This document shows, in pieces, positions 2,423-50,321 of a DNA stretch of 53,247 nt. How positions within the stretch are numbered: position 1 is the first letter of the stretch; the number at the start of each line of letters is the position of its first letter. The notes beneath the pieces are model-generated. The model did no database searches and was not told where the DNA came from. It saw only the letters and a list, made by a program, of their open reading frames with translations. The stretch is taken from the IMG/VR virus record IMGVR_UViG_3300018077_000010, positions 1 to 53,247 of that record, one strand, 5' to 3'. The DNA comes from a virus. The position numbers and the translations under genes are program-made.

Positions 2423-2580
2423 GCCCGGCTCCCGGCGCGCTCGTAGCCGCCCCGCGTGAGGATGCGGTTGGCGCGCGCGAGCGTCAGGGTGCCGCTCTGC
2501 TCGACCAGCTTCCGGCTCTGCACGACGGTCACGGTCCTGATCTGGCCCGTCTTGAGATTGCGGTACTTGACCTTATTCAT
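2419..2580 (-). CDS. Small basic protein (53 aa)
   Basis: The start ATG at 2580 overlaps the TerL stop (ATGA), and its TGA overlaps the following GTG. The product is rich in Arg/Lys with no hydrophobic segment (start MNKVKYRNLKTGQIRTVTVV). It is too short for a reliable family call. The chain of overlaps on both sides is the main evidence that it is translated. Confidence 0.58.
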   Translation of the reverse strand: MNKVKYRNLKTGQIRTVTVVQSRKLVEQSGTLTLARANRILTRGGYERAGSRA

Positions 2581-28888: not shown

Positions 28889-28894
28889 ACCGTA

Positions 28895-29337: not shown

Positions 29338-29338
29338 C

Positions 29339-31913: not shown

Positions 31914-32296
31914 CCGCCGCCGACGCCGCGAAAATCCTCGGCGTTGCGCCGAGGACCGTCTACGACCTCGCCGCGCCGCGCGGGCCGCTCGCTTGCACAC
32001 GGATCGGGCGGCGGGTAGAGTTCGAGGAACAGGACGTAAGGGCGTTCAAAGCGGCGTGCCGGTCTATTTCGACAAGGCAAAGAAGCGTTGGCGATTCCAG
32101 CTACGCCGCGCGCTCGCGGGTCGACGTATCCGCCACAATCAACTGCTTCCTGCGGGGTGGACTCGAGCTCAAGCCTTCGAGTTCGAGCGGGTGGAGACTG
32201 GTCGCCTCACGGCAATCGCGGCCGGGATCCAGCGCGACGAGCCGTCGATCGACGAAGCGGTCGCGCTCTACATCGAGCACCGGCTCCCGCACCTAA
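31910..32296 (+). CDS. Excisionase-like MerR-type HTH protein, overlapping integrase
   Basis: The GTG at 31910 overlaps the previous stop (GTGA). The first 50 residues (AADAAKILGVAPRTVYDLAA, then IGRRVEFEEQDVRAFKAAC) are a clear HTH_17/AlpA-type winged helix, used by phage excisionases to direct the integrase. The frame stays open for a further 75 Ser/Arg-rich residues that overlap the integrase gene, and these are probably not functional. A small protein of 55-60 residues joined to the integrase by frameshift, or a natural long overlap, are both possible. Confidence 0.6.
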   Translation: MTAADAAKILGVAPRTVYDLAAPRGPLACTRIGRRVEFEEQDVRAFKAACRSISTRQRSVGDSSYAARSRVDVSATINCFLRGGLELKPSSSSGWRLVASRQSRPGSSATSRRSTKRSRSTSSTGSRT

Positions 32297-33036: not shown

Positions 33037-33038
33037 CT

Positions 33039-33066
33039 GTCAGAAAAACATAGCGTTTTTTCTGAC
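33039..33066. repeat. 10-bp inverted repeat with 8-nt spacer, candidate attP core or terminator
   Basis: GTCAGAAAAA (33039-33048) and TTTTTCTGAC (33057-33066) are perfect inverted arms around CATAGCGT. This is the size and layout of a tyrosine-recombinase crossover site. It also makes an AU-rich hairpin and could stop convergent transcripts. No T-run follows in either direction. Confidence 0.5.
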
Positions 33067-33073
33067 TGGCGAT

Positions 33074-33113
33074 GTACTGCCAGTACCTCGCTGCATGTCC
33101 ACTATAATGGACA
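33074..33113. repeat. Further inverted repeats between integrase and giant gene
   Basis: GTACTG-C-CAGTAC (33074-33086) and TGTCCA-CTATAA-TGGACA (33096-33113) are perfect. TATAAT (33103-33108) lies in the second, without a clear -35. They fill the convergent gap and could be recombinase, operator or terminator sites. Confidence 0.5.
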
Positions 33114-33163
33114 CGGCAGGGTAATCAGGCACTTACGCTCCGCGCGGGGCGCGCGGGACGCGC

Positions 33164-36100
33164 CTACCGCGCCTCGGCGGCCGATTCCTTGCCCACCAGC
33201 TCGGTGATCTTCTGCTGCCGGCGCATGATCTCGTCGGTGTACTTGAGGGTCAGCTTCTCGCGCTGGGCCGGCGTGAGCGACTGGTCCGCGAGCTGCCGGC
33301 GCAGCTCCTTCCGCGTCTCGTTCACCTCGAATCGCATCTGGCGGATCCTGGCGCCCAGGTCGGCCTCGCCGACGCCGCGCGTGGTGGCCCCGAGGGCGCC
33401 CGCGACAGCCTGGCCTACGGTCGTGCGCTGCTCGCCGCCGCGGGCAGTGCTCTCTTTCAGGGCGTCCGTGAGCTTCCCGGAGATCCAGCTCACCGGGTCC
33501 CCGAGGTCTATGCCCACGAACCCGTGCGACGAGATGATCGGCGGCAGGGCCATGTCCATGACGTAGGTCAGCCGGGCGAGCCACTGGATGTCCGGCGGCG
33601 CGCCCGCGGGGGCGATGTCGCGGCCGGTAAACTGGTCCTTCCCGGTCGCCGCAGCAATCATCAGGTCGGGGATCGGGCCGGACAGCAGGCCCAGCGACTT
33701 CGCGGCCTGAGTCAGCTCGGCATTCTTGAGCTCGTGGATCGCCTCCTGCCACATCGACCAGGGCAGGTAGTACGACACGTCGACGAACTGCCAGCGCCCG
33801 GTCGCGTCCTTGAAGGGCAGCATGTAGACGTGGCCCTTGCGCTGCCAGTGCTCGGGCAGGCGCTTCTTGAGCTCCTCCTGGTCGTCCGGGTCAACGCCGG
33901 TCAGCGCGGCGATGGCGTAGGGAAGCCCCCAGGCGAGGGCGACATAGGGGATCATCCGCTGCGGGTGCAGCAGCATCGTCTCGACGATGCGCGGCAGCAC
34001 TTTGATCGTGAAAGTCAGGAACGGGGCGCCGATCGGCGCGCGGCGCGCCCAGCGCAGCGTCTTGCCGACCTGGGAGTAGTCGAACAGCCACTTGTTCGCC
34101 TCGAGCATGGCGTCGTCGGCCGAAGCCTCGTTACTCTCCTGCTCGTGGATGAACTTCGCGAGCTTGCCCAGCGCCTCGACGCCCTGATAAAAGTCCCCGG
34201 CGCCCTTCACGATCTTCGCGCCGACGGCGGCGAAGTGCATGAGCGACATGGGGCCGCTGGCCTTGGCCCGGAGGTCGAGCATCTCCGTCTCGATCTGGTA
34301 GAGCTCGTTCGCGGCGAACGTGTTGGCCGAGCCGCCGCGCTGCTTGAAGAGCTGGTAGTGCCGGCCCCCGGTCCGCATCTCCTTCGCGGCCTGGCCGATG
34401 CGCTGGGCGATCCGCACCCAGCTCATCCCCGAGAGGTTGAGCAGAACCATGTTCGCCACGAAGTTGCGAATCTGCGAGGTCGGGTTGAGCGGGACCTTGA
34501 CCAGCTTCCACACGCCCGTCACCTTCGAGCCCACGCCGCCGTAGCTGAAAATCTTTTCCGGAAGGCTGGCATCGGACGGGACGATGTGCGCCACGCCGAC
34601 AATGTCGTCGTAGATTTCGCGACGCACGACCATGCCGCGGAGGCGGCCATAGCGGCGGGTATTCGGGAGCTGCATCCACTCGCTCGAGACCGTGATCTCT
34701 CCGATCGCCCTGTTGGCGACCTCCTCCATCCGGCCGGCGAGGTCGAGCACCTTGACGCGGTTCGCGAAGTCCGGCCCGGTCTTGGACGCCCGCGCACGGA
34801 GATCCGCGGCCTCGGAGAGCAGCCAGTACGGGGTGACGCGGTGCCCCTCCCACTGCACCAGCGACTTCTCCATCGCCCACTCGCGGTTCCTCGAGATGTC
34901 GTTGAACCAGTCGAGTAAGGCCAGGTCGCGCATCGCGCGCGTGAAGCCGACGGCGGTGAGGTAGCCCGGGTCGGTGATCGGCCCGTGGCGGGTGATCCAG
35001 TCCTCGGAGACCGGCCTGCCGGTCTTGCGCTCAACGATGCGGAGCTCGCCATCGCCGTCGAAGCCCCACTCGTAGCCGCGGGCCTTGAGATAGCCGAGCT
35101 TCGAGGGCTTCTTGCCGGTGCCGAGCTGGGAGTAGTCGGACTCGGAGAGAATCGAGTGCAGGTAGAGCTGCGGCAGGTAGCCGCCACGGCGCTTCTCGAA
35201 CGTCTCCCTTTTGAGCATCCCGGCCTTGACGAGCTGTTCGCCCACGCCCTCGAGCATGCCCTTCACCTTTACGGCGTGCGCCCGGATCTTCGGGTCGACG
35301 ATCACCGTCGTGGCGGCGCCCTTGGTGATGAGGTAGCGGAACGACGCCGCGGCGTCAGCCTCGGTCGCCTCGGTGAAAACCGCGTGCAGGTCCTTCCCGG
35401 CATCGCTGATGGCCGAGATCGCGCCCTGGGCGAGGTTGCGGCGTTTCTGGAACTCCGAAATGCCGGGCAGTTTGCCCAGCGGCTCGAAGATGTTTTCGAT
35501 CGTCCGAACCACGTTGCGCGCTCGGTCGCCAAGCGATGGCGCCACGGTCGTCGTCGGTCGCTGGAGCTGCGTCTGCACGATGGCACCGGCGAGCGCCCTC
35601 TCCACTATCTCAGCCGGCAGGGTGTCGATCACCTCCGACACCTGGTCCTGGGTCAGCGTCTCGCCACCCAGCCACGCCTTGCGCTGCTGGAAGCGGTGCG
35701 CCGCCTCGGCGGCGAGCTGCACAACGCGGTCGAAGTCTTTGAAGTAGTAGTCCATGCTTCGCGGCGACTCGTCGCCGAACGCGCGGCGGATCTGCTCGAC
35801 CAGCCGGCGCAGGAACACCAGGACCCTCTGGAGCATCGACGGATTGCGGCTCCCAAGGTAGTCCCAAAACTCCTGTTGCATCATCGAGTCGCCCATTATC
35901 TCGGCGGTGAACTCGCTGTGCAGGACGCCGCGCGCGGTGGGATTGTTCTTGAAATACTCGCGCGCCTCGTCTGGCGTCATTGGACGCAGTTCGCCGGTCT
36001 GTGCGTCCAGGACGCCTTTGAAATAGCGGGGGCCGTACTTAGCGATGAACTCCAGATACCGCTCCTGGGAGACGTACTTCGCCAGCTCGCTGATGAACCA

Positions 36101-39100
36101 CTTGTGGACGTCGGGCGCCTCCCTCTCGATCAAGTGCTCGAACTCGTGGCCGAACGTGTGGAGGTGCGGGGAGTCGGACGCCTCGTTGAGGAAGATGTTG
36201 CCGCCGTGCCGCGCGCCGTTGATGGTGATGGGGGCGTTGTGCGTGGAAATGCCGAACACCTGGCCGCCGACGCCCATCGCCCTGGCGATCTCCTTGATGC
36301 CGACCGCGAGCGGCGCGGTCATGTAAGTTCCCGGCGGGCTAGCTCCCGGCTTGAGGCCGGCGATGCGGTCGAGATCGCGACCGAGGCTGTCAATTAGTTC
36401 GGCGGGTGCCCGCGGACTCTCGTGATCCGGCTCGAGCACATGGCGCGGATCAGACGCGAAACGGAGGGCGAAGTCGATGTCGTCCGCGGGTTCGCGCGGG
36501 GCGCCGGGGGTGCGGGCGTTGGCGTCCTCGGCCCCCTTCTGGATGAGGTCGACAACCGGGCGGCCCTTCGTGATGCGCTCGAGCACCGCGGCATCGCCTA
36601 CGGGAACGAAGGCGCGCTCGGAGAATCCGTGCCGTTCGAGAATGACGCCCTGAGACTTGAGCAGGCTCTTCGTCTCGCCATAGAGGAAGCTCGGCGGCCC
36701 CTTGATCTCGACGCGCGGCTCGCCGCTGACGCGGGACATGGTGAGCTCCCAGCCGTTCGCCAGGATCGCCCTGTCGCCGGCCAGCACCCGCTCCATGATC
36801 TTCGCCGCCGGCATGTTCTGCGCGGCGGACGCCACGCCCAGCGCCTTGAGGGTTGCCGCCAGGTCCTTCGGGTGGATAGCCCGGCCCAGCAGCCGACGGC
36901 CGTCGGACGTCTGGGTCCGCACCACGCGGGGGTGCCCGTGGATCCGGTCCCAGACCGGGAGGATAGCCCCCGTGATGAGGTGCAGCCGGTCGGCGTAGGT
37001 GGGCGAGGTACGCTCGGTCTCTTCCTCCCAGAGGATGCGCGCCGGGCCGTTGTCGAGCCAAGCCCGGACCGCAGGGACGTCCGCGTCGGACGGCTTCTTA
37101 CCGCCGATACGGGACACGCGCGGGAAGTGGCGATCGACCTCGCCGGGCTTGATGTACTCCTGCATCCGCCCCCAGAGCTTGCGGGCTGCGGCGCGGTAGC
37201 CCGCGTCGTGGCCGGGCTCGTTGAGCATCGCCTCGACGCCCTCGCGGCCCTTCTCGTCGAGGACGCGAGAAATCTGCCCGGTGCCGACGCGCCGGACGTA
37301 GCCGGAGGAGGTCTCGAACGGCTCCTCCATGTGTCCGCCCTCGAACTTCTCGCCCTGGATCTTGCGGATGACGCTCTTGGAGCTGTGGCCCTTCTCGGCC
37401 TCGGCGGCCTCGCCGAAGTCGTGAATGGCGTCGGAATACTTCGGGGTCCCGGAGACGGGGATGATGAGGCCGCGCCGCACGAGCTGGCCCTTCGTGTTCA
37501 TGCGCTGGCCGCGGTCGATGAGAGCGACGACGCGGTCGGGCTTGCTGTGGTGCCGGAGGATGAAGTAGCCAGCAGCCTTGTCGTGCATCGAGTAGAGCTG
37601 CCCCTTGGCGTTCTCGAACGACGTGAAGTGCTGCGGGAGGGTGAGCTCGAGCTCGACGTACTTGGCCTCGGCTTTCGTGCGCTCGTCCCGGTGCGCGACC
37701 TCGTCGCGCTCGATCTTCGTCTCCAGCGCCTTGATGACCTCGACGCCCATGTCGTAGGTCCCCTGGGCCTTGGCATTCTCGACGATCTCGTCCAGGCGGG
37801 CGAAGTATTCCTCGAACACCTGGTTCTGGCGCTCGATGGTGAGCGAGAGCAGCCGGTTGAGGAACTGCGTGATCGGGACCTGCTGGGAGTTGATGGACCC
37901 GGTGTCCTTGTTCATCTTCTCGGCCAGGCCGAGCTCCGTCAGAAGCGCCTTGATCTGGAACGGCGTGCGGCCCTGGTTGAGGTCCGTGAAGAAGACCTGT
38001 AGCGCGTCGACAGCGTACTTCGACTCCAGGTTGTCCTCGGACGAGAACAGGCCCCGGCCGCCAGTGCGGCGCTCGCCCATCGTCAGCGCCCCGAGCTGGT
38101 CGAGACGGCGGGCGATCGAGGAGATAAACCGCTTCTGCGCCTGGACGTTGGTCGTCACGAGCTTGTAGAACGGCGCATTGGCCTGGTTGGTCCGGTGCGT
38201 GCGGCCGAAGCCCTGGAGGGCCTGGTCGGCGCGCCAGCCCGGTTGGATGAGGTAGTGGTAGCGGCGCGCCTTGTTCTTGATGGTGTTCGAGGCGTGGTAG
38301 GACACGCCGGTCCCGCCCTTGTTCGAGAACACCAGCACCTGACGCTTGCCGTTGTGAAAGTCCTTGACGTCAGAGGAGAGCATCTTGTCGGTGCGCTTCT
38401 CCTCGCGCATCCTGTAGTTGCCCTCCTCGTCGCGCACACGCACGAACCGGCGGCTGCGGCCGGTGATCTCGGAGACGTTGTCCTCGCCAAACGCCTCGAT
38501 GACCATGTCGATCGGATTCGGAACCGGGTTCGCCTGGCGGATGGTCTCGAGGTGCTTGACCAGGTCGTCCCTCATCTTCTGGGCTTCTTTGTTGATGACC
38601 GAATTGCCGTCGGAGCCGTAAACCGGGGTCTGCACCGGCTTGCCGTTTTCGCCGATCGTGGTCTCGAACTGCTGGACCGGGAACGCATTCATGATGAACT
38701 CGATCAGCGAGTCCATCGGCGTGACGTCCAGGTCGTTCAGGTCTTCCCCGGCAGCCTCGGCCTTGGCGACGGCGCGCTCCGTGGCGGCCTCGCCCGTGCT
38801 CACGAGCTGGAAGACCGGCGAGTGACCGGCGGCGAGCTGCTTCTGGGCGTCTTCGATCACCGAGGGCATCGCGAACGACGTCAGCACCGAGTTGAAGAAC
38901 CGCTGGTGCGCCGCCCAGAAGACGCTGCGCTTCATGGCCGCGGCGCGCGAGCCGGTGGCCTTCGTGACATTGAGCGCCTCGTTGATGTTCTGTAGGACGC
39001 CCTGCCACACGCGCGCGAACTCGTTGTAGATGTCGTGCTGGACCTCGCTCAGGTCGTGGGTGATAGTGTCGTGCTGGACGCCGTCGAACGACAGCGAGCG

Positions 39101-42100
39101 GGCGATGTAGAGGCCGAGCGCCTTGAGGTTCTGGGCGACCATCTCCATGACGGCGACGCCGCCCTTCTCGACCTCGGCCACGAAGTTGGCGGGGCCGGCA
39201 AACGGCGTGCCCTCGCCCCAGAGGCCCAGGCGCGAGCCGTAGACGAGGTTGCGCACCTCGGTCGCGGCGGTCGCCGAGACGTAGAGGATCCGGGCCTGCG
39301 GCATCCGCTTTTGGAGGTCGAGCCCGGCCATCGCCTTGAGGGAGGCGTCGCCACCGAACATACCACCCTCCTCGGGCAGCACGTTCGCCATATTGTGCGC
39401 CTCGTCGAAGACGATGACGCCGTCGAAGTCCTCGCCCAGCCACTGCACGATCTGGTCGATGCGCGCTTTCTTCTGGAGAGCGGCGAGCTTCTTGGCCTCG
39501 GCCTTCGCCTGTTCGGCCGGCGTGAGTTTCTCGTCGCCGGGCTTCTCCTTCTTCGGCTTGCGGCCGATCGGCTGGTAGCCGGAGCGCAGGGTGTCGTACG
39601 TCGAGAACAGGACGCCCGCCTTGTGGCGCACCGGCATCCCGGCCTCGTACTCTGTGGTGAGGTTGAAGATTTGCTTCTCGTCCCCGCCGACGTCGCGGAA
39701 GTCGCGCCGCGCGTCGTTCACCAGGGTTTGCTTCTCCGAAAACCAGACGGCCCGCTTCCGGCCACGGCGCATGTTGTCCAGGATGATCGCGGAAATCTCG
39801 CGGCCCTTGCCGACCCCGGTGCCGTCGCCGATCAGGAATCCGCGGCGGATATTGCCAGGGAGGAACTGCTCGTGCGCCTGGCCGGCGTAGACCACGGCCT
39901 CGAGCTGCGCAAGGGAGATACCGCCCCGGATGGTCTCGCCATCGACCTCGATCGTGAAGCCCTTGATGGTCTTCTCGGGGAGATTCGGGGTGTGGGTGGG
40001 GTCCGGCGGCTCGACGGCAGCCATCGACGCGGACTGAACGAGCTTTCCGGCATGCGGAAGGGCGCCCTCGACGCGCACCTTCTGCGGGCTGTACGGGTCG
40101 TAGAGCGCATCGCTGATGGCGCCAAGCGCGCGCTCGATCTCGGCGCGCTCGATCTTGACGTCGGACTTCTCGGCCGGCGCCGCGGGCTCGACCGGCGCGG
40201 GCAGCTTGTCCTGCTCGATGGGGTCCGCGGGCGGGGCTACGGGGGTGGTGGGCGCCTGGCCCTCGACGGCTACGCCGCGGGAGTCGCGGACGTTGACCAG
40301 GGTGGCGGGCGCGTCGGTGAGCTTGGCGATGTCGCCAGTGACGGTCGTGCCCTGGTGCGGGCCGACCTTGTCGATCACGACCAGGACGGTCGGGAAGGTA
40401 GTACCGTACTTGCGGTAAACGTCACGAGATACCGTGACATTGGCCCGGACGGTGTATTTCTTGCGGACGTCGGCCCACCAGGCGGCGCGCGACGGGGCGT
40501 TGATACCTTCGCCCATGATGGCAACCAGACGGCCGCCATCGGCGAGCATGAGGAGCGCCTGACTGATGTGCTGGAGGCCCTCGGCGCTGTCGCGGTGGCC
40601 CTCAATGCGCCCAGCGGTCGAGGAAAACGGCGGATTCATAACCACGACGCCGGGCCGGATGTCGTCGGGGAGGATGTTGTGGAGCTGCGCCGCGTCCTCG
40701 GTGAACATCGGGCGGCCCGGGAACATCTCGCGCAGGAGCGCGGCGCGGCGCGCCGAGTATTCGTTCAGGATCAGCCGGCCGCCCGCCTGTTCGGCAAAGA
40801 TCGCCAGGCCGCCGACGCCAGCGGAGGGCTCAAGCACCTGGTCGCCGGACTTGATGTTCGCGAGCCAGTTGACCAGGTAGGCGTAGGCCGGCGGCGTCGA
40901 GAACTGCTGGAACTCGTCGGTTTCCCCGGTGCGGCGGGTCTGGGTCGGGAGCTGCTCGACCAGGCGCACAAGGCCGGCGATGTCGCCCACGGCGAGCGCG
41001 ACCTGGAGGGTCGGGGACATGCGTTTCGAGCGGACGTAGAGGTTGACACCCATCTCCATCGCGTCATAGGCGTCCTTGGGGGTGAACTTGCCTTCGGCGG
41101 CGGTGCCACCGAACTCCATCTCCATAGACGAGTACAAAACGCGCTCATCGAACGGTTTGCCGGTCTTGAGCAGCTCGGCAACCACCTCCGCGACCCGCAT
41201 CGAGCTCGAGGTCTTCTTCTGCTCGCCGAGCCCGGCGGTGAGATTCTTCTCCTTGATGAAGAACGCGAGGTAGGGCTTGATGCCGGCGCCAAAGTTGGTG
41301 ACGATGAAGTCGATGAAGTCCTTGATGGCCTTGCCCGCCGCCTGGAAGTGCTCGAGCGCCTTCTGGAAGTGCGGCTTCGCCTTGGCGTAGGTCTCCTTGT
41401 CGAGCCCGGCCGGGAAGCTCTTGAGCGCGTTGCCGCCGAAGAGCTCGACCAGGCCCGCCATCGTCTCGTCGAGGCCCTTGACGCCCTCGGTCGCGGCCTT
41501 GGCGGCGATCTCGCCCGCCGTCTTCTTCACCGCGTCGGCCCTGGCCGTGTCGGTGGCGCGGACGGCGTCAGCAACATCCTCCTTCGGCTTCTCCTGCTTC
41601 TTCTCCTCGGTGCGGGCGATCGACTCGTCGATCAACTTGTCGATCTCGTCGTCGAGGAGGACGGCGTTCTGGGGCTGTTCGGGCGGCGGCGCGTTGCGCG
41701 CCTCTTCGGCCAGACGCGCTTCTTCGGCGCGGCGGCGGACCTCTTCAAGCTCGTATTGGCGAGCCTGATCCTTGGCCTGGAGGGCGGCCGTGCGCTCCTG
41801 CTCGACCAGACGGAGCAGCTCGTCGGCCTGGTCAGAGTAGTGCTTCTTCGCGGCCTCGAACGCCTCTTGCTCCTTCGGGCGAGCCTCTTCCCAGGCAGCG
41901 GCGTCAACCGAGAACCCCTTGGCGTCGTCCCAGCGCAGGGACTTGATGAGGGCGGCGAAGTAGGTGGCAAACCGCTGGCGCTCCGCGCCGGCCGGATACG
42001 GCATGCCGCGGTACATCGGCGGCTTGACCCGCCCGTCGCCGGACCACGCCGGGTTGACCAGGTAGTTGTTGATCGCTGGGCGTAGCGGCCCCTCCTCGCC

Positions 42101-45100
42101 GACCACGGAACGGGTCTTGCCGAGCAGGTCGCCGACGAAGCCCTCCCACGCGCGCGCAAACATCTCCTCGTCGTTCGACCAGTACGGGTCCGACTTCCCG
42201 CCGTCGAGCGCGACGGCGTGTTTCTGGAAATCGGTCTTCTTGCTGCTGGCGTGGGTGCGCATGTAGTAGCGCAACGCCGCGGCCTTGTTGGTACGCAGTT
42301 CGCCGCTCTGGTAGCGGATGCCGCCAGTCAGGAGTCGCTCGACGTCCTTGTTGAGGATGTCGAGGTCCCAGGACGCGCGGAGGGCGCGAACGATCTGCTG
42401 GACAGCGACGTGCTGGGGGTTGTCTTTCATCGCGCGGGTGGCACGCAGGGCGTAGTCGAGCCCGTGCGCCCACTCGTGGGAGACAGTACCGTCGCCGCGG
42501 GTGTTGGTGAGGTTGATGACCGCGACCTTGCCGCCGTCGGGGTGAGGCTGCTCGGAGGTGTAGTGCGCCGCCGCCTTGCCCTGGCCGAGCGCGCCGATGG
42601 TGAAGTAGAGGTCGAGCTGGCCGATCGCCTTGTCCGGGAAGCCCAGAACGGCGGCGAGGTCCTTGAAGGCGTCGAAGGCAGCGTTGAGGTGCGCCTGGTC
42701 ACGCTTCACGTTGACCCACTTGCCGAATCCGACGTCCTTGAAGCCGAACTCGTCCTTGAGCATCTGTGGCGTGACGTCGACGCCCTGGCGGTAGTCACGC
42801 AGGCCCTCGCGGGTCACGCGATCGAGGCGCGGCGGGATGAGTGGCTGTTTCTCCTGGGACTTCTCGCTCTCGTTGCGCTTGAGCGACCTGACGCCGTAGC
42901 TCTCTGGGCCGAAGTGGTATACCGGATCGTAGATGACAGCGTTCGCGCGCTCGCCGAGCTCGGTAAACTCTCGCTGCCGGCCGAGTAGTGGCTCGGTGAA
43001 TTTCACCGACGCCTCCGCAACCGACTTCGAGCCGCGCATGCGCTCCGCGATCTCAGAGACGATCTCGATGTAGAGCTCGGCCTGCGCCTTGACGTACTCC
43101 TGGGCGCGCGAGGGCTCGACGTTGCTCAGTCGGCTGGACTGCCACTCGCCGCTCTTGTCCTGCACGAGCTCGCGGCCGACACCCTCGCCCTTGAGGAAGT
43201 CCAGCAACGCGGCGCGCGGACCCTCCTTGCGATAGGACCCGGCCTTGTAGCCTGACTCGCGCGTGATGGCGAATTTGCGGATGGGGTTCTTGTAGTTCGG
43301 GCCGGTGCCCTCGGTCACGAATTGTGCGAATGTGAGGGCGGCGTTGCGCACCTCGTCGATGAAGCGGTGCGTGCCGGGCGTGGCGTCCTCGGCGGCGAGG
43401 TCGCGGAACAAGTCCGCGCGCGCGGTGTTCGCCTCGATCTCGGCGAGGACGTTCTCGGCCGAGCCCGTGGCGTTCTTGATGTCCGACTTCGCTTTGTCGA
43501 ACCAGCGCCGGAGCTCGGCGCCCGTGTTCTCGAGCTTGCGGGTCTGCTCCTGCACCTTCGCCGCGGCAGCCGCCTCTTTCGCGAGGCGCTTGGCCTCGCG
43601 TTGGATCGGCGGGTAGAAGTCGTCCGGGAAGTTGACCTTGCCGTCCACCAGCACTGCATCGACGGCGTCGGTGAAGACCTTGTCGCCCGCGGTCTCGGCG
43701 TTCTTGCGCTGCTCCGTGAGACGGCCGGCGAGGTAGCTGCCGACGATGTCGTTGAACAGCGGCTCGTCCGCGACCTCCGCGAGGTTCGGCATCGCCTTGG
43801 CGGCGATCTGCTCGTTGAGCGTGAGCTTCGGGACGGCGCGCTTGACCAGGCGCTCGTGCTCGGCCTTCTCCTTCCGCTCCGCGGAGACCCGCTGGGCCTC
43901 GGCGCGCGCGACGGCGGCACCTTCCTTCTCGGCAGCGCGCGTAGCGCGAGCGGCCTCTTCCGCCATGCGTCGCGCGCCCTCCGCGGCCTCGGTGGCGTCT
44001 TTGGCGGCCTGTTCGGCGGCCATCTTGTCGGCCATCCGCTTGGCTTCGGCGGCGGCAGCCTTCGCTTTGTCGCTCTGCCGCTCCTTTGCGGCGGCCTCGA
44101 GCTCCGCGCGCGCCTTGTCGCGACCAGCCTTGAGGGCGGCGGCCTCCTCGGCGATGCGGAAGCTCGGGCTCGCCGGGCGCTTGAGGTTCGCGGGCTCGCC
44201 CATCCACGTCCTGAACGCCTCGACGTTCTCGAACGCAGTGATAGCCTTGCCGCGGGTCCAGTCAGGCGTGTAGTTCTCCTGGTAGGCGGCGCGCGCCTCC
44301 GCGCGGCCCGGCCACCCGAACATGACCTTGTGCTCGTCGAACGAGCCGTCGGCCTTCGCCTGGTCGATGACGAACACCGGCCCCGAGTAATCCGTTGCTA
44401 GGCCCGGACGCACGAAGACATCGAGCTTCTCGCGTTTTCCCGTCTTCGGGTCGATGTCCGCGGCCTCGGTGCCCTTGAAGTAGCCGTAGTGCGACTTGAG
44501 CGGGGGCCACTCCGGGCGACGGCGTGAGCCGGCCTGGTTCTCGAACGTGACCGGCATCCCGCCGATCGTCTCGTGGCCCTTCGGGTAGTTCCCGGCCTCC
44601 TGCTGCGCCGGAGTAGCGGCCTCGCCCTTCGCCTCGGCGGCGGCCTCGTCTACCGCTTTTGCGGGTACGGCAAGCTCGCGCTCGACAGCCCCGGCTTGTG
44701 GGCCTTGAACCACTCCACCTGCTTGAGGCGTCGCAGCGCCCGGCGCTTGCTCAGGCCCGGCTTGGACAGGTTCTTTCCCGACTCCGACTTCACCTGGAAG
44801 CCGCCCTTGCTCTCCACGATCACGACGCTCTCCTTCGAGCGGCAGCGCGAGCTGGCGCTCATCAACTTCGGGCGCGCGACGCGCGGCCAAGATACCCAAT
44901 TCAGGTTGATACGTACCCGTTTCCGGTAGGACCCTGCCCGCCTCGTCGATCAGCTTCCGCGACTCGCGACGGATTGCCAGAACGTCGGGGTTGACTTTGG
45001 CCGCCACCTCGGCGGCTACGTTGGCCGGGCTCTCGCCGCGCGAGATGCGCTCCACGACCTCCCGGTACTCCTTCTGCGTGCCGATGTAGCCGCCGTCGAA

Positions 45101-46672
45101 CAGCCGCTTGGCGGTCAAGTAGGCCGGGTCGGACGCCATGTCCTCCGGGAGCTCGCCGGGCTCTTTCACGGCGGTCCAGGACTCGTCCAGGGTCCGCGGC
45201 TTCGGCGCCTCGGCAGAGACCAGGGCGCCCTCCACGTCGCGCTGGGCGCGGGCGAAGCTCTCGGCCTCGGCGTCCGGTGCGGCGGCCATGCCGCGGTCGA
45301 TCTTCGGGAGCGGGATCTCCCGGGCGGGCTTGCCGGCGCGACGCTCGAGCTCCGCTCGCGGGGCCTCCGGCGGGACGCCCTCGAGCTTCGGCAGGCTCTT
45401 GGCCGGGACCTGGCCCTCGACCTCGGTCAGCGTCGTGGGCTCTGCGGGGGCGGCAGTGGGGGGCGCCGGGGGAGCCGCCGGCTGGGCGCCAGGCGCCCTG
45501 CTGCCGGGGATAATCGGTTCCTTGGCGCCGGGCATCATGTCCAGCGCGCGGCCGGCGGCGGCGGCGCTCGCCAGCATAAAGACGCTCTGCGCCAGCGCGG
45601 GGCCGGCGACCTCGTTGAAGCTGGTCTTCAGATCGTCCCAGGACGTGAACGACGGCGCCGGGCCGGGCTTGACCCCGGCCTCGACCTCGGCCTGGCTCTG
45701 CCCGACGCCAGTCGGCACCTCGGTCAGGACGTCCGCGCCGATACCCGCGGCGGCGGCGCCGGCCGCCTTGGCGAAGCTCTTTTTTGCCCAGAAGCGAAGC
45801 AGGAGCTTCCCGGCGACGGTCAGGCCGGTGTTGCCGGCGGCTTCCCAGAACGCCTCATGGTGCGCGTGCGCGCGCGCGATCTTCTCGAGCGAGCCGCTCC
45901 CGCCCCACAGCAGGCCGATGCGCTTCGCGGCCTCCTGCATGTCCGGATCCTTGCCGATGTCGATGTACTCCGCGTCGGTCAAGGGCCTCCCGCGCTGGCG
46001 GATCGACTCGGCGTCCATCGAGTCCCGCACCTGGCGGATGAACATATTGGCGTCCGAGTTGTAGGCGCCCATGTAGCTGCCCATCGCCAGGCCAGCCCAC
46101 ATCCCTTTCGGACCACCCGGCGAACCGGCGATACCGCCCAAGAAGCCGGTGAGCATTGCCATCGACGAGAACGCGAGGCTCTGCGGCATGGTGCGCAGGC
46201 CGTGCCGATCGAGCTTGAAGCCCGCGAAGTCGAAGACGGTGTCGCCCGCGTCGTCGCGGACGGCGGACTTCTCCGCATCCTGGCGGGCCTCCTCGATAAA
46301 GCGGTCGCGCCAGTTCTGGTTGCCGTAGATGGCCTCAACGTCAGCGCCAGGTGCCTCGGTGAGCTGCGCCCACGCAGCGCGGAAGCTGTTGGGAGCGTTC
46401 TTGGCGGCGGTCCAGACGTCGGACGCAATGTCGCCGAGCCCAGCGGAGGGCTTGGTGGGGATGGCTGCCTCTGGGGTGACTTGGGCGGCGGTGGCGCTAT
46501 CGTCGAAGCCGACGAAAGTCTGAACGGGGCGCGGCACAGCACCGCGGGGCGCGGGCGCGCCGGGGCGAACGCTGGCCGGGGCGGTCCCCGGTGCGGCTTG
46601 GGAGCCGGCGGCGGGGGAGCGCGCGGTGTTGATCGGGTCGTCAGAGAATCCGGCGAACGTCGGGTTCGGCAT
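33164..46672 (-). CDS. Giant polyvalent protein, DarB-like (about 4502 aa)
   Basis: This is the largest gene of the window. ATG 46672 (MPNPTFAGFSDD) is preferred over an upstream frame extension because the previous gene stops at 46675. Domains in order, with rough residues: a Pro/Ala N-terminus with FxGF[SD]D at 6-11 and 53-58; Gly/Ala hydrophobic stretches (161-205, 270-310); a polyvalent-type inorganic-pyrophosphatase-like domain (705-825); a long coiled coil (840-945); an LPD-type domain with zinc-protease motif HEWAH (1399-1403); an N6-adenine methylase (motif I EPSAG at 1948, NPPF at 2013); a strawberry-notch-like SF2 helicase (Walker A GDGTGVGK 2282-2289, DEAH 2423-2426, GRTHR near 2822); a second HExxH (HEFEH 3509-3513); and a C-terminal LPD38-like domain (about 3725-4480). 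Polyvalent proteins of this kind are packaged in the virion and injected; P1 DarB (methylase plus helicase) blocks restriction. That role here is inferred. Confidence 0.93.
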   Translation of the reverse strand: MPNPTFAGFSDDPINTARSPAAGSQAAPGTAPASVRPGAPAPRGAVPRPVQTFVGFDDSATAAQVTPEAAIPTKPSAGLGDIASDVWTAAKNAPNSFRAAWAQLTEAPGADVEAIYGNQNWRDRFIEEARQDAEKSAVRDDAGDTVFDFAGFKLDRHGLRTMPQSLAFSSMAMLTGFLGGIAGSPGGPKGMWAGLAMGSYMGAYNSDANMFIRQVRDSMDAESIRQRGRPLTDAEYIDIGKDPDMQEAAKRIGLLWGGSGSLEKIARAHAHHEAFWEAAGNTGLTVAGKLLLRFWAKKSFAKAAGAAAAGIGADVLTEVPTGVGQSQAEVEAGVKPGPAPSFTSWDDLKTSFNEVAGPALAQSVFMLASAAAAGRALDMMPGAKEPIIPGSRAPGAQPAAPPAPPTAAPAEPTTLTEVEGQVPAKSLPKLEGVPPEAPRAELERRAGKPAREIPLPKIDRGMAAAPDAEAESFARAQRDVEGALVSAEAPKPRTLDESWTAVKEPGELPEDMASDPAYLTAKRLFDGGYIGTQKEYREVVERISRGESPANVAAEVAAKVNPDVLAIRRESRKLIDEAGRVLPETGTYQPELGILAARRAPEVDERQLALPLEGERRDRGEQGRLPGEVGVGKEPVQAGPEQAPGAATPQAGGVVQGPQAGAVERELAVPAKAVDEAAAEAKGEAATPAQQEAGNYPKGHETIGGMPVTFENQAGSRRRPEWPPLKSHYGYFKGTEAADIDPKTGKREKLDVFVRPGLATDYSGPVFVIDQAKADGSFDEHKVMFGWPGRAEARAAYQENYTPDWTRGKAITAFENVEAFRTWMGEPANLKRPASPSFRIAEEAAALKAGRDKARAELEAAAKERQSDKAKAAAAEAKRMADKMAAEQAAKDATEAAEGARRMAEEAARATRAAEKEGAAVARAEAQRVSAERKEKAEHERLVKRAVPKLTLNEQIAAKAMPNLAEVADEPLFNDIVGSYLAGRLTEQRKNAETAGDKVFTDAVDAVLVDGKVNFPDDFYPPIQREAKRLAKEAAAAAKVQEQTRKLENTGAELRRWFDKAKSDIKNATGSAENVLAEIEANTARADLFRDLAAEDATPGTHRFIDEVRNAALTFAQFVTEGTGPNYKNPIRKFAITRESGYKAGSYRKEGPRAALLDFLKGEGVGRELVQDKSGEWQSSRLSNVEPSRAQEYVKAQAELYIEIVSEIAERMRGSKSVAEASVKFTEPLLGRQREFTELGERANAVIYDPVYHFGPESYGVRSLKRNESEKSQEKQPLIPPRLDRVTREGLRDYRQGVDVTPQMLKDEFGFKDVGFGKWVNVKRDQAHLNAAFDAFKDLAAVLGFPDKAIGQLDLYFTIGALGQGKAAAHYTSEQPHPDGGKVAVINLTNTRGDGTVSHEWAHGLDYALRATRAMKDNPQHVAVQQIVRALRASWDLDILNKDVERLLTGGIRYQSGELRTNKAAALRYYMRTHASSKKTDFQKHAVALDGGKSDPYWSNDEEMFARAWEGFVGDLLGKTRSVVGEEGPLRPAINNYLVNPAWSGDGRVKPPMYRGMPYPAGAERQRFATYFAALIKSLRWDDAKGFSVDAAAWEEARPKEQEAFEAAKKHYSDQADELLRLVEQERTAALQAKDQARQYELEEVRRRAEEARLAEEARNAPPPEQPQNAVLLDDEIDKLIDESIARTEEKKQEKPKEDVADAVRATDTARADAVKKTAGEIAAKAATEGVKGLDETMAGLVELFGGNALKSFPAGLDKETYAKAKPHFQKALEHFQAAGKAIKDFIDFIVTNFGAGIKPYLAFFIKEKNLTAGLGEQKKTSSSMRVAEVVAELLKTGKPFDERVLYSSMEMEFGGTAAEGKFTPKDAYDAMEMGVNLYVRSKRMSPTLQVALAVGDIAGLVRLVEQLPTQTRRTGETDEFQQFSTPPAYAYLVNWLANIKSGDQVLEPSAGVGGLAIFAEQAGGRLILNEYSARRAALLREMFPGRPMFTEDAAQLHNILPDDIRPGVVVMNPPFSSTAGRIEGHRDSAEGLQHISQALLMLADGGRLVAIMGEGINAPSRAAWWADVRKKYTVRANVTVSRDVYRKYGTTFPTVLVVIDKVGPHQGTTVTGDIAKLTDAPATLVNVRDSRGVAVEGQAPTTPVAPPADPIEQDKLPAPVEPAAPAEKSDVKIERAEIERALGAISDALYDPYSPQKVRVEGALPHAGKLVQSASMAAVEPPDPTHTPNLPEKTIKGFTIEVDGETIRGGISLAQLEAVVYAGQAHEQFLPGNIRRGFLIGDGTGVGKGREISAIILDNMRRGRKRAVWFSEKQTLVNDARRDFRDVGGDEKQIFNLTTEYEAGMPVRHKAGVLFSTYDTLRSGYQPIGRKPKKEKPGDEKLTPAEQAKAEAKKLAALQKKARIDQIVQWLGEDFDGVIVFDEAHNMANVLPEEGGMFGGDASLKAMAGLDLQKRMPQARILYVSATAATEVRNLVYGSRLGLWGEGTPFAGPANFVAEVEKGGVAVMEMVAQNLKALGLYIARSLSFDGVQHDTITHDLSEVQHDIYNEFARVWQGVLQNINEALNVTKATGSRAAAMKRSVFWAAHQRFFNSVLTSFAMPSVIEDAQKQLAAGHSPVFQLVSTGEAATERAVAKAEAAGEDLNDLDVTPMDSLIEFIMNAFPVQQFETTIGENGKPVQTPVYGSDGNSVINKEAQKMRDDLVKHLETIRQANPVPNPIDMVIEAFGEDNVSEITGRSRRFVRVRDEEGNYRMREEKRTDKMLSSDVKDFHNGKRQVLVFSNKGGTGVSYHASNTIKNKARRYHYLIQPGWRADQALQGFGRTHRTNQANAPFYKLVTTNVQAQKRFISSIARRLDQLGALTMGERRTGGRGLFSSEDNLESKYAVDALQVFFTDLNQGRTPFQIKALLTELGLAEKMNKDTGSINSQQVPITQFLNRLLSLTIERQNQVFEEYFARLDEIVENAKAQGTYDMGVEVIKALETKIERDEVAHRDERTKAEAKYVELELTLPQHFTSFENAKGQLYSMHDKAAGYFILRHHSKPDRVVALIDRGQRMNTKGQLVRRGLIIPVSGTPKYSDAIHDFGEAAEAEKGHSSKSVIRKIQGEKFEGGHMEEPFETSSGYVRRVGTGQISRVLDEKGREGVEAMLNEPGHDAGYRAAARKLWGRMQEYIKPGEVDRHFPRVSRIGGKKPSDADVPAVRAWLDNGPARILWEEETERTSPTYADRLHLITGAILPVWDRIHGHPRVVRTQTSDGRRLLGRAIHPKDLAATLKALGVASAAQNMPAAKIMERVLAGDRAILANGWELTMSRVSGEPRVEIKGPPSFLYGETKSLLKSQGVILERHGFSERAFVPVGDAAVLERITKGRPVVDLIQKGAEDANARTPGAPREPADDIDFALRFASDPRHVLEPDHESPRAPAELIDSLGRDLDRIAGLKPGASPPGTYMTAPLAVGIKEIARAMGVGGQVFGISTHNAPITINGARHGGNIFLNEASDSPHLHTFGHEFEHLIEREAPDVHKWFISELAKYVSQERYLEFIAKYGPRYFKGVLDAQTGELRPMTPDEAREYFKNNPTARGVLHSEFTAEIMGDSMMQQEFWDYLGSRNPSMLQRVLVFLRRLVEQIRRAFGDESPRSMDYYFKDFDRVVQLAAEAAHRFQQRKAWLGGETLTQDQVSEVIDTLPAEIVERALAGAIVQTQLQRPTTTVAPSLGDRARNVVRTIENIFEPLGKLPGISEFQKRRNLAQGAISAISDAGKDLHAVFTEATEADAAASFRYLITKGAATTVIVDPKIRAHAVKVKGMLEGVGEQLVKAGMLKRETFEKRRGGYLPQLYLHSILSESDYSQLGTGKKPSKLGYLKARGYEWGFDGDGELRIVERKTGRPVSEDWITRHGPITDPGYLTAVGFTRAMRDLALLDWFNDISRNREWAMEKSLVQWEGHRVTPYWLLSEAADLRARASKTGPDFANRVKVLDLAGRMEEVANRAIGEITVSSEWMQLPNTRRYGRLRGMVVRREIYDDIVGVAHIVPSDASLPEKIFSYGGVGSKVTGVWKLVKVPLNPTSQIRNFVANMVLLNLSGMSWVRIAQRIGQAAKEMRTGGRHYQLFKQRGGSANTFAANELYQIETEMLDLRAKASGPMSLMHFAAVGAKIVKGAGDFYQGVEALGKLAKFIHEQESNEASADDAMLEANKWLFDYSQVGKTLRWARRAPIGAPFLTFTIKVLPRIVETMLLHPQRMIPYVALAWGLPYAIAALTGVDPDDQEELKKRLPEHWQRKGHVYMLPFKDATGRWQFVDVSYYLPWSMWQEAIHELKNAELTQAAKSLGLLSGPIPDLMIAAATGKDQFTGRDIAPAGAPPDIQWLARLTYVMDMALPPIISSHGFVGIDLGDPVSWISGKLTDALKESTARGGEQRTTVGQAVAGALGATTRGVGEADLGARIRQMRFEVNETRKELRRQLADQSLTPAQREKLTLKYTDEIMRRQQKITELVGKESAAEAR

Positions 46673-46674: not shown

Positions 46675-48207
46675 TTATTCTCGGATTTTCCCGCGGGATT
46701 TGCTCGGGTTGTCTTTCAGCCACGCAGCAAGCGCGGCGTCTTGGGATCCGTGCTCGCTGACGACACCTCCGGTTGCGGCCATCCAGCGCGCGAAGTCCTC
46801 TTTGTTGCCGCGAACGATCTGATCCTCGCCGTACTGGCCGAGGTCGGCGGCACGCAGGCGAGTCTCGCCGACGTGCGGCGAGAGACCGCGGGGCGGCGAG
46901 GAGGCGGCATTACTCAGACCGGGCGTGCGCGAGGCCGCAGCCTGCTCTACGGCGTTGGCGGCCTGCCCGGTCTTGTCGGGCGTGACGGACCGCTCGAGAT
47001 CATCGTAGTCCAGCGGCAACGGTTCATCGCTACCGTCGGCTCGGTAGAGCTTCCGCGAACCAGGCAGCACAACGATCGGAACCAGCGCCTCTTTCCCGTC
47101 CTCGCCGCGTAGTTTGATGTTCTTCACGAACGTCTTTTTCGCCTTCATCACCGCAACCGGATCGGCGGGGTTGAGCGCCACGTCTTTGCCATTCACCATG
47201 TCGCGGATCATGGTGGCACGCAACGTGGGATTGCTGCCACGGAGGCCGGACATCAACGCGGCACGCGCCTCCGACTCGGCGGTTGGCACCAAATGTGACG
47301 TTCCGGTCGCGTCGATCTCGCGCTTGCCGTGTCTCTCGTTGGAGCTCTCGGAGAAGAACCGCTCGATCGGCATTTCCTTCGGATCGAAGTCGTTGTCGGC
47401 AACGCCACCTTTCTTGTCCTTGCCCTTGGGGGTGAGAGCGGCCTCCGCGCGGGCGGCGGCGAGATCGGCCCTCGCGCCGCGGTTGTACTCGGCTGCGGAA
47501 CGCGCCTGTTCCGTCTGCGCGACGCGGAGCTTGATCGTGGCCTCGCTCTCGGCGGCTTTCTGCCTCGTCTCCGCCTCCTTCGCCTGCCGGTCGAGGAACC
47601 GCTGCGGATTCTTGATGTTCGAGAGGTAGTCCTGCGGGTCGAATTGGCGCTCGGTACCATCGCCGAGACGGACGTTCCAGATCCCGGGCCGGACCTCGAT
47701 GATGTCCTTGACGTCCATGCCGCCGCGGCGAGCCGCTTCCATTGCGGCTTGCTTGTCGCCGCCGAGCATGGCCTCGGCCGCATCTGCGACGCCACCCTTG
47801 TAGCCCTTGTAGGCCAAGCTCAACCAGTCGCCGACGCCGGACTGACGATGCTTCGCCGCCGACAGGGCGATCTCCTGGAGCGCCTTCGGATTCATCAACA
47901 GCGGACGCCAGCGCGGATCTGCGGCGACCTCCTGGAGCGTCATGTCATTCCGTGGTTCCTGGATGGTGCTCAGGCCCGGCGGGGTGTCTTGCGCTTGGCC
48001 GCCGCGGGCGTGACGGTACGCGATGTCGGAGAACTCCGCGGCGAAGTTCTTGGCTCCCGACAGCTTGTCGCGAGCCTCGATGTTCTTGTTCTCCGCGGCC
48101 TCGGCCTCGGCGTTCGCCCTGCGGATCGTCGCATCGCGGGTGTCCGCGTATTCCTTCTCGCGCAACGTTTGCTGGCGAGCGCCAATCACGATTTGTCCGA
48201 GACTCAT
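46675..48207 (-). CDS. Probable virion or DNA-ejection protein (510 aa)
   Basis: The ATG at 48207 lies one base after the previous stop. The N-terminus is a long charged helix (residues about 15-55), followed by Arg/Lys/Ala-rich coiled segments (about 205-260) and Pro/Ser-rich linkers. No catalytic motif is seen. Its place between an S74-containing protein and the giant injected protein, and its helical, Ala-rich composition, suit an ejection protein of the P22 gp16/gp20 or Bcep22 type. Family membership is inferred from context. Confidence 0.62.
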   Translation of the reverse strand: MSLGQIVIGARQQTLREKEYADTRDATIRRANAEAEAAENKNIEARDKLSGAKNFAAEFSDIAYRHARGGQAQDTPPGLSTIQEPRNDMTLQEVAADPRWRPLLMNPKALQEIALSAAKHRQSGVGDWLSLAYKGYKGGVADAAEAMLGGDKQAAMEAARRGGMDVKDIIEVRPGIWNVRLGDGTERQFDPQDYLSNIKNPQRFLDRQAKEAETRQKAAESEATIKLRVAQTEQARSAAEYNRGARADLAAARAEAALTPKGKDKKGGVADNDFDPKEMPIERFFSESSNERHGKREIDATGTSHLVPTAESEARAALMSGLRGSNPTLRATMIRDMVNGKDVALNPADPVAVMKAKKTFVKNIKLRGEDGKEALVPIVVLPGSRKLYRADGSDEPLPLDYDDLERSVTPDKTGQAANAVEQAAASRTPGLSNAASSPPRGLSPHVGETRLRAADLGQYGEDQIVRGNKEDFARWMAATGGVVSEHGSQDAALAAWLKDNPSKSRGKIRE

Positions 48208-48208: not shown

Positions 48209-48742
48209 TCAGTACCCCTTCACGGCCGAGAGCCCGGCCTTGTTGCTGTAAGCGCGGCGCTTGTGCTTGAGCTTCTTCGAGGAGAAGGCCGCGGTGCCGC
48301 CTCCGTACTCCTCCGCGGTCGTGCGCTTCATCGTCTCCTGGTCGCCGATCTTGGTGTGCTTCGTGAAGGCACCGAAGGCCGCACCGCCGCCGCCCTTGCC
48401 CTTCTCGGCCACCTGAGCCTTCGGCGGCTCGGCGCCACCGGAGACAACCCCGCCGGTCGCGGCTGCACCGGCAGGGGTCTCGGCAGCGCCGCCAATCGCA
48501 CCAGCGGCACGCGCCGTGTCCTGAGCGAGAACGTGCTGGTCAGCGCGCGCGAGAGACGCATCCTGCCCGGCCTGGAACTCGGTCATCGCCTTCTGGAGGC
48601 CGAGCGCATCGAAGGCCGCGAGGCCGGTGCGCTTCGCGGCCTCCTCGGTGTCCCGCTTCTTCTTGCGGGCGAGGGCGGCCTCGCGGCCAGCGAGGACCGC
48701 GGTCCCCATGTCCGTCGAGATGTTGCCGTACGGGCTAGCCAT
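48209..48742 (-). CDS. Virion-type protein ending in a truncated S74 motif (177 aa)
   Basis: The ATG at 48742 lies within the end of the previous gene (8-nt overlap). An Ala/Gly-rich helical body with a charged middle ends in SSKKLKHKRRAYSNKAGLSAVKGY-type residues (154-177, shown in part here). These match the opening of the S74 chaperone domain of the neighbouring protein (SSKRVKHSKAP and ALSAVK), but stop where the rest of that domain would start. It is a likely ejection or assembly protein. Confidence 0.65.
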   Translation of the reverse strand: MASPYGNISTDMGTAVLAGREAALARKKKRDTEEAAKRTGLAAFDALGLQKAMTEFQAGQDASLARADQHVLAQDTARAAGAIGGAAETPAGAAATGGVVSGGAEPPKAQVAEKGKGGGGAAFGAFTKHTKIGDQETMKRTTAEEYGGGTAAFSSKKLKHKRRAYSNKAGLSAVKGY

Positions 48743-49862
48743 GACGCGCGCCCCTCAGTCCAATTTTCTTCGAGATGGCGTCGACTTTGCTGGAGAGCTC
48801 CTTGATGGCGGCCATGTTGATGCCGTTGAGCGACATCAGGTCGACCATCTTCCCGCCGGGCGCGGCGCGCTCGCCCATGTTCTTGCGAACGTCCTCGGCA
48901 TACGGCCCGACGTGGCGCTTCGCCCCGCCGTCCTCGACTCCGGGTTTGTACTTCCAGGACTCCACCTTCGTCTTCTTCACCGCGGAGAGCGCGGCCTTGC
49001 CGCTGGTCGGCGCTTTGCTGTGCTTCACCCTCTTCGAGGACATCCCACCGGCAATGCCGCCGACGATGTTGCTGATCTGGTTAGAGACGATCTGTTTGCC
49101 CTTTATGTTGTAGTCGAGCACGTCGCCCGCGGCCTTCGCCCCGGTCCCGTACATCGACGCGGCGGTCTGCCCGGCAACGCCGGTCGCCTGGGTCTGGGCC
49201 TGGAGGTAGGGAACGGTCGCGGCCTCGCGTTGCTTCAGCAGCGCGTCGGCGGTGCCGACCGCGGTGCCGGCGGCGGCCTGCACGGCCGAGAGGCCGGCGG
49301 CCTGGACCCCGCGACCAGCCTGCTGGGCCTGCTGGCGAAGCTGGATGCCGGTGAGCTCGACGTTGCGACGCGCTTCGTTGCTGGCGGTGGCCTGGGCGGC
49401 GGCCTGCGCGATGGCAGCCTCGCCCCCGGCGGTGTCCTCGGGCCGGAGGCCGTACCTGGCAAGCCGGGTGCCCTCGCGGCCCCGCGCGGCCTCAAACGAC
49501 TGCGCGACGCCCGACGAGGCGCGCGCGGCTTCGGCCTCCATGCGCTCCGGGGAGTCGAAGGCCATCGCATCGGCGGCGACCTTCTTGTCGATCGGGTCGT
49601 AGGACTCGGCAAACGTCTTGGCGCTGGACAGGCCCATGCCGAGCTGGGTTTCAACCACCTTGCTGGTAGTCGCCTGCTCGGTGGCGGCCAGGTCCTTGGA
49701 CCAGGCGAAGGTCTCATCGCCGATGCCCGCGGCCTTCGTGGCGATGCCCTGCGCATCCTTGACGACGCCGGTCAGAAGTGCCTTCTCCTCCGCGCCACCA
49801 AGCCAGCCGGACGCCCCGTAGGGGCTCTGCTTCTTGACCATCTTCTCACCGAGGAAGCCCAT
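48735..49862 (-). CDS. Virion protein with C-terminal S74-type intramolecular chaperone (375 aa)
   Basis: The ATG at 49862 (MGFLGEKMVKK) starts the frame 12 nt after the GNAT stop. The first 270 residues are Ala/Gly/Gln-rich helices, with QQAQQAGRG repeats. From residue about 274 come SSKRVKHSKA, ALSAVKKTKVESWKYKPG, RHVGPYAEDVRKNMG and INMAAIKELSSKVD, the layout of a peptidase-S74 or tail-fibre chaperone that trimerises a fibre and cleaves itself off. Such a domain on a helical, non-fibre protein next to ejection genes is known in some podoviruses. Whether it still self-cleaves depends on a Ser/Lys pair that I cannot place with certainty. Confidence 0.75.
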   Translation of the reverse strand: MGFLGEKMVKKQSPYGASGWLGGAEEKALLTGVVKDAQGIATKAAGIGDETFAWSKDLAATEQATTSKVVETQLGMGLSSAKTFAESYDPIDKKVAADAMAFDSPERMEAEAARASSGVAQSFEAARGREGTRLARYGLRPEDTAGGEAAIAQAAAQATASNEARRNVELTGIQLRQQAQQAGRGVQAAGLSAVQAAAGTAVGTADALLKQREAATVPYLQAQTQATGVAGQTAASMYGTGAKAAGDVLDYNIKGKQIVSNQISNIVGGIAGGMSSKRVKHSKAPTSGKAALSAVKKTKVESWKYKPGVEDGGAKRHVGPYAEDVRKNMGERAAPGGKMVDLMSLNGINMAAIKELSSKVDAISKKIGLRGARHG

Positions 49863-49874: not shown

Positions 49875-50321
49875 TTACTTGAATTTTACATGGTATCGGT
49901 CCCATGGGCGAAAGCCCATGCGACGGTACAACCTGTCCAGCGCCGCGGGTGCCAGATTAGGCGTGCCAATCATCAGCAGCCCATCGGCGTGCTCCGGCCA
50001 CCACTCCTCGAGCGCCGCCATCAGCGCCTTGCCCGCGCCGGTTCCGCGCCACTGCGGTTCGACCCACCAGAATTTCTCGATCGCGACAGTCAAACTCGGG
50101 TTGAACCATGGGCCGCCCAGCGCCGCGGCGATCGTGCCGATAACGCCGCCGGCATGCTCGGCCACGAGCACGACCCCGTCGCCCATGAGGGCGCGGATTT
50201 CGGCGCGCACCGCCAGCCAGTCGACTGTCGTGACCTCCGCGTAGTCGGTGGCATCGAAGAACCGGCCGCACATCTCAAGGATGCGCGGGATGTCGCTGTC
50301 GGTCGCGTGGCGGACGATCAC
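49875..50321 (-). CDS. GNAT-family acetyltransferase (148 aa)
   Basis: The GTG at 50321 overlaps the previous stop (GTGA). Strand-helix pairs VIVRHATDSDIPRILEMC, the central VVLVAEHAGGVIGTIAAAL and the acetyl-CoA loop WRGTGAGKALM are those of a GNAT enzyme that transfers acetyl to an amine. The end RLYRRMGFRPWDRYHVKF is also typical. It lies among virion genes, where related enzymes in other phages modify virion or host proteins; the substrate is unknown. Confidence 0.82.
   Translation of the reverse strand: MIVRHATDSDIPRILEMCGRFFDATDYAEVTTVDWLAVRAEIRALMGDGVVLVAEHAGGVIGTIAAALGGPWFNPSLTVAIEKFWWVEPQWRGTGAGKALMAALEEWWPEHADGLLMIGTPNLAPAALDRLYRRMGFRPWDRYHVKFK

Follow-up and report, generated by a model that had tools for sequence, protein, structure and literature searches.

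A giant phage polyvalent protein carrying a methylase–Strawberry-notch cassette with relatives on conjugative plasmids

What might a phage gain from a single 13.5-kb gene whose product joins several unrelated enzymes in one chain? Polyvalent proteins of this kind are believed to decide the opening minutes of infection in the phage's favour, and few have been tested apart from the Dar proteins of P1. The class has been known since 2017, including a small number of cases with Strawberry-notch motors, which were recorded "in a few instances" (Iyer et al. 2017, PMC5512222). The window (the whole stretch of DNA analysed) is an entire IMG/VR virus record of 53,247 bases, and the coordinates of its features are collected in Table 1.

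Table 1. Features of the giant gene and its surroundings, in window coordinates
Feature	Coordinates	Strand	Remarks
Giant polyvalent gene, 4,502 aa	33164..46672	-	ATG at 46672; stop ends at 33164
N-terminal region, residues 58-476	45245..46501	-	Gly/Ala-rich hydrophobic stretches; common to giant L006 and, partly, L084
InPase, residues 689-824	44201..44608	-	Pfam 1e-30; aligned acidic residues kept
MPTase-1 with LPD1, residues 1266-1580	41933..42877	-	HEWAHGLD at 1399; upstream AAAHY
Predicted gamma-class N6-adenine DNA methylase, residues about 1819-2135	40268..41218	-	QQFSTPPA, EPSAG, NPPF
Strawberry-notch N-lobe AAA_34, residues 2206-2551	39020..40057	-	Walker A GDGTGVGK; DEAH; Pfam 2e-104
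Strawberry-notch C-lobe Helicase_C_4, residues 2719-2978	37739..38518	-	GRTHR; Pfam 4e-84
Conserved block, residues 3206-3380	36533..37057	-	In nearly all complete phage/plasmid Strawberry-notch cassettes examined
Putative MPTase-2, residues 3430-3690	35603..36385	-	HEFEH 3509; candidate glutamate in EFTAEIMGD
C-terminal module, residues 3730-4490	33203..35485	-	Family with 48 other viral-contig loci
510-aa gene directly upstream of giant	46675..48207	-	Position as virion-associated JC1 gp68 (510 aa)
177-aa gene	48209..48742	-	Order as JC1 gp67; without family match
375-aa virion structural protein	48735..49862	-	PHROG 8003; homologue of POI1126 gp26
GNAT acetyltransferase	49875..50321	-	Order as in JC1 and POI1126
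Portal protein	1..1992	-	Cut by record end; 868 aa in sister contig
Terminase large subunit	2577..4112	-	
Integrase	32191-33036		

The giant frame and its domains

The giant gene is read from the minus strand; the plus strand is blocked by stops across the same interval, and an in-frame GTG at 46723 would lengthen the protein by 17 aa if used as the start. A preliminary description, made from the sequence alone, had listed seven motifs in this single frame, and all seven were recovered at the residues claimed, counted from the ATG (HEWAH 1399, EPSAG 1948, NPPF 2013, GDGTGVGK 2282, DEAH 2423, GRTHR 2823, and HEFEH 3509). A sister contig (IMGVR 3300018031_000009, here L101), which also spans window positions 1-10990, is 99.98% identical to window positions 23167-42240, with 3,024 aa of the giant frame still open, and homologous frames of 2,957-4,616 aa are found on about 17 other viral contigs. 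The giant frame is therefore neither a chance occurrence nor an assembly artefact.

The chain combines several unrelated catalytic domains and is encoded among late/virion genes, both of which are traits of the polyvalent type, and we regard it as almost certainly a phage polyvalent protein. Its very large size, unrelated enzymes, phage-only InPase and LPD38-like domains, MPTase, methylase with SF2 motor, and late-gene position are all as in the phage polyvalent proteins of Iyer et al. (PMC5512222). It differs from the usual members in that the motor is Strawberry notch rather than SNF2, the C-terminus has no Pfam LPD38 match, and the second HExxH region is unclassified. The N-terminal region may possibly have a packaging or membrane role.

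The pyrophosphatase-like domain named at the outset proved to be an InPase, which passed the Pfam cut-off and retained, despite a short insert, the acidic residues shared without exception by 10 aligned relatives. Two HExxH zinc-protease sites had also been proposed, and the one at residue 1399 was borne out. When MPTase-1 was aligned with seven phage relatives, the HExxH motif, an Asp three residues on and the His ending the preceding strand were all kept, and a conserved Glu within the LPD1 stretch (residues 1489-1580, Pfam 5e-10) is a candidate third ligand. The same HExxH/Asp/His features were reported for the phage-type MPTase (PMC5512222), and by these sequence features MPTase-1 is a phage-type zincin site.

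For the site at residue 3509, a zincin assignment could not be confirmed. No relatives of this region were found in viral contigs or plasmids, no Pfam model matched it, and a profile comparison with MPTases from other giants yielded E 0.06 at a probability of 0.9%. A single-sequence structure model was poor (pLDDT 54.5), and its best Foldseek matches, to podovirus polyvalent proteins, were weak (E 0.08-0.2). A second zincin (MPTase-2) is accordingly kept as plausible and unproven. Polyvalent proteins with two MPTases, or with multi-MPTase chains, are already on record (PMC5512222).

The methylase domain was recovered by PHROG DNA methyltransferase profiles (residues 1920-2055), and its three motifs are invariant or nearly so across 12 giants. 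These motifs fit the gamma-class N6-adenine methylases of polyvalent proteins, in which a TP motif and NPP(Y/F) are found (PMC5512222). The helicase domain was present as an SF2 motor, but not as the DarB-type motor to which it had been likened. Both lobes exceeded their Pfam cut-offs (349 and 283 bits versus 27 and 30.5), the motor motifs do not vary among 12 giants, and the motor is assigned to the Strawberry notch family because AAA_34 and Helicase_C_4 define that family. A DarB/SNF2-like motor was ruled out, as Pfam detected these two domains and no SNF2-rel_dom. In domain order the giant resembles P1 DarB and the DarB-like giants of Bcep22, JC1 and POI1126, in which a gamma-class methylase likewise precedes an SF2 motor, which in DarB-type proteins is of SWI2/SNF2 type; an N6-adenine methylase with an SF2 motor fused on its C-terminal side is a DarB-family trait. 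Residues 1720-1870, ahead of the methylase where the DarB family has LPD36, are conserved in relatives and matched nothing in the domain library, and a GXG(G/A/S) motif is not clear there.

Beyond the motor, the conserved block at residues 3206-3380 was modelled with AlphaFold as an alpha/beta domain (pLDDT 82), and no fold match to this model was found in the PDB. A C-terminal winged helix of Strawberry-notch motors, SnoC-wHTH, has been described (PMC5512222). In the giant of L014, an intein (residues about 639-980, Pfam Intein_splicing 3e-13) lies between GDG and TGVGK of the helicase Walker A. An apparent Walker A loss in L009 turned out to be a substitution (GDGPGVGK) and no intein.

Genome setting and the C-terminal module

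By its genome organisation, the virus is a temperate Bcep22/Namazuvirus-like podovirus. The order GNAT, virion protein, further gene(s) and giant is present, together with homologous portal and head proteins. Window positions 20134-33036 form a temperate phage replication/recombination block, with helicase and replication-protein-like genes, a RecT-like annealing protein, an exonuclease, SSB and a tyrosine-type integrase. A 382-aa PHROG 479 protein and the major head protein (PHROG 334, E 8e-91), both missing from the window, are encoded on the sister contig (L101:14621-17136). Identity to Ochrobactrum phage POI1126 is 26% for the portal, 26% for the head protein and 31% for the 375-aa protein.

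In phage JC1, genes of 510, 196 and 332 aa and a GNAT gene, with two small genes among them, precede a 4,515-aa DarB-like protein (gp69), for which 51 unique peptides were recovered from CsCl-purified virions (PMC9144972). The position, size and neighbours of the JC1 giant are as in the window. A gene of about 250-570 aa occupies the same upstream position in most relatives. The 510-aa gene was rejected as a recognisable homologue of these counterparts, the likeness being one of position only, with no sequence homology detected.

POI1126 has a similar gene order around its giant, with homologues of the portal, the major head protein and the 375-aa protein described here. Its syntenic giant (gp30) shares only the InPase, at 45% identity, and carries an Eco57I-type methylase, SNF2 and LPD39, whereas the window giant has the AAA_34/Helicase_C_4 motor. 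The claim that the gene is the counterpart of the Bcep22-like virion giant thus holds for gene position and for the homologous portal, head and upstream virion proteins, but in the alignment with gp30 it extends no further than the InPase. Slot and general design are common to both phages and the neighbours are homologous while the giants align at the InPase alone, so a different methylase-motor cassette sits in the same slot.

The preliminary description had called the C-terminus LPD38-like. The giant did not reach the Pfam cut-off for LPD38 (PF18857); however, when a profile of the module (22 sequences) was compared with a profile of LPD38-bearing giants using hhalign, a match over 263 columns was obtained (probability 94%, E 1e-7), and the label is therefore right as a distant relationship. 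Residues 3730-4490 also match a protein of a Manatee Spring podovirus at 25% identity. In many loci the module accounts for the greater part of a protein of about 1,100 aa that stands alone; in others it forms the C-terminus of giants of 2,000-4,100 aa. As a family of its own it is new, as far as our literature search shows, and as a domain that stands alone in many phages it is a candidate virion-targeting or ejection domain. A search of solved structures with the module was unproductive, and when 398 genomes from a single phylum were searched for a prophage relative of the C-terminal third, one 113-residue match (E 2e-4) was obtained.

Several members of the module family carry further regions. 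A virion RNA polymerase-like stretch (PHROG 2206) is fused to the same module in L085 (5231-12511), and a stand-alone module protein (L057) includes a stretch resembling an internal virion protein. In three giants of about 3,800 aa (L081, L082 and L083) the module occurs together with a methylase and a motor region that are more distant (22-30% identity), and an InPase is present in L081 and L082.

Relatives of the cassette on viral contigs and plasmids

In the giants of the roughly 17 other viral contigs, the methylase-motor core is conserved at roughly 40-50% identity, and the domains outside it vary from giant to giant. Among 12 that were scanned, LPD38 was found in five and InPase in three, and others carry PBECR3, ART-PolyVal, Zeta toxin or ParB. 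A terminase large subunit was identified by one PHROG in 6 of 19 relatives and by a second family (phrog_9) in none, so for the remaining relatives a phage nature is taken from IMG/VR and from structural genes nearby. The particular domain order, which had been singled out as special, recurs in a 4,815-aa giant (L114) on a Pseudomonadota genome contig (G098 contig C374). There, InPase, methylase, Strawberry notch, the conserved block, HExxH and LPD38 follow one another as in the window giant, although L114 has a canonical LPD38 and a weak ART-PolyVal and is without MPTase-1/LPD1. A unique domain order is ruled out by L114 and, in part, by L006 and L009.

Among 72,556 plasmid records the core matched 690, of which 448 reached at least 80% coverage and 355 were typed as conjugative. 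When the core was compared with 50,697 deposited phage records, none covered 80% of it, and the matches listed all fell in the methylase part and none in the motor. Conjugative-plasmid proteins (such as WP_230874547.1 and WP_014133156.1) share the methylase, the motor and the 3206-3380 block with the giant at up to 50% identity and fall into one group with the window in the tree described below. Plasmid proteins add ArdC-N, MPTase-PolyVal and a weak Toprim, or stand alone, whereas the phage giant adds InPase, MPTase-1/LPD1 and the LPD38-like end.

On the IncP-like plasmids of two methylotrophs, Methylomonas LL1 (protein of 3,236 aa) and Methylotuvimicrobium 20Z (2,547 aa), the cassette is fused to ArdC-N and MPTase-PolyVal, and its gene follows traI, a gene for a traG-type coupling protein, traF, topoisomerase III (traE-like) and traD or a small gene. 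By RP4 gene order, we take this place to be the traC slot. Elsewhere on plasmids and chromosomes the cassette mostly forms a protein by itself, about 1,400-1,560 aa long and lacking a delivery module.

A tree of 32 cores shows phage and plasmid rows interleaved, and the phage rows need seven changes. The window pairs with L006 (support 97), and this pair joins L014 and the four closest gammaproteobacterial plasmids (support 99); two of these plasmids are the traC-slot cases. The tree was midpoint-rooted and gives no direction of phage-plasmid transfer. TraC1 of RP4 is known to be transferred to the recipient (PMC7213743). We tentatively propose, at slightly less than even likelihood, that a second, DarB-independent cassette, common to phages and conjugative plasmids and made of an adenine methylase joined to a Strawberry-notch motor, protects DNA on entry. 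It would be mounted either on an LPD38-like virion module, to leave the capsid together with phage DNA, or in the TraC slot of a transfer operon, to be sent with plasmid DNA, and would have been swapped repeatedly between both. Our literature search returned no further paper on plasmid or phage Strawberry-notch methylases, and within the literature searched, the extent of the cassette in giant phage proteins and its common phylogeny with traC-slot plasmid proteins are new.

A possible role at DNA entry

The account we favour is a chain of four steps (packaging, ejection with the DNA, proteolysis, and motor-assisted methylation against restriction), which we judge to be rather probable by analogy with known systems. 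The giant would be made late and packed in the capsid, with the LPD38-like C-terminal module, and perhaps the hydrophobic N-terminal region too, serving as the virion/ejection part and the rest as cargo; the module is given this part because of its position and its stand-alone occurrence. By comparison with JC1, Bcep22 and P1, the protein may then enter a new host along with the DNA. MPTase-1, perhaps with MPTase-2, may cut the chain into working pieces or cleave a host target. The Strawberry-notch motor would move along the incoming double-stranded DNA and carry the fused N6-adenine methylase to its sites, thereby preventing restriction cutting, and the InPase may clear PPi or a signal nucleotide.

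Packaging, ejection and methylation are modelled on P1, in which DarB is packaged (PMC9024508) and the Dar proteins are co-ejected (PMC12810830), and on the proposal of Iyer et al. (PMC5512222). The chemistry of the methylase, motor and InPase is predicted from intact motifs, and the biology built on it is inferred. Since the core aligns with no DarB-type motor, its function is assigned by analogy: we infer that the cassette may work like DarB, through a methylase-motor unit exchanged by phages and plasmids, and that it is not a DarB descendant. ArdC of R388 counters type I restriction, and its protease site is dispensable for antirestriction (PMC7213743); the proteolysis step may for this reason be wrong.

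Alternatively, the giant might not be packaged at all and might modify phage DNA within the infected cell or lysogen, as an ordinary phage methylase would. The prevalence of stand-alone cassettes without a delivery module on plasmids and chromosomes is in keeping with this, but the giant gene ends the virion gene block, its C-terminal module stands alone in other phages, and the JC1 protein in the corresponding position is found in virions, so that a purely intracellular methylase seems unlikely. Late-block position also speaks against expression in a lysogen, which would be expected if the methylase-motor pair and proteases acted on rival phages or plasmids as a prophage superinfection exclusion system. 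The virus is temperate, as the integrase indicates, and other elements have been suggested as targets of polyvalent proteins (PMC5512222), yet no nuclease domain was detected in the giant by Pfam scan, and we consider exclusion quite improbable.

The motor could instead mainly aid the start-up of transcription or replication by displacing proteins, helped by PPi removal, with methylation as a side activity; InPase has indeed been proposed to clear PPi for polymerases (PMC5512222). Against this, the phage and plasmid loci examined encode the motor as a fusion with the methylase, which ties it to methylation and leaves a start-up role with little likelihood. Cargo and carrier are separable in this case, with the same methylase-motor cassette found on phage-type and plasmid-type delivery modules, and since a short form of it (about 1,460 aa) occurs on a plasmid, a test of the antirestriction idea would not require the giant.

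Elsewhere in the window, a tRNA-His (GTG) gene is located on the minus strand at 16320-16394, and a perfect 32-bp tandem duplication (27743-27806) lies at the end of a small predicted gene.
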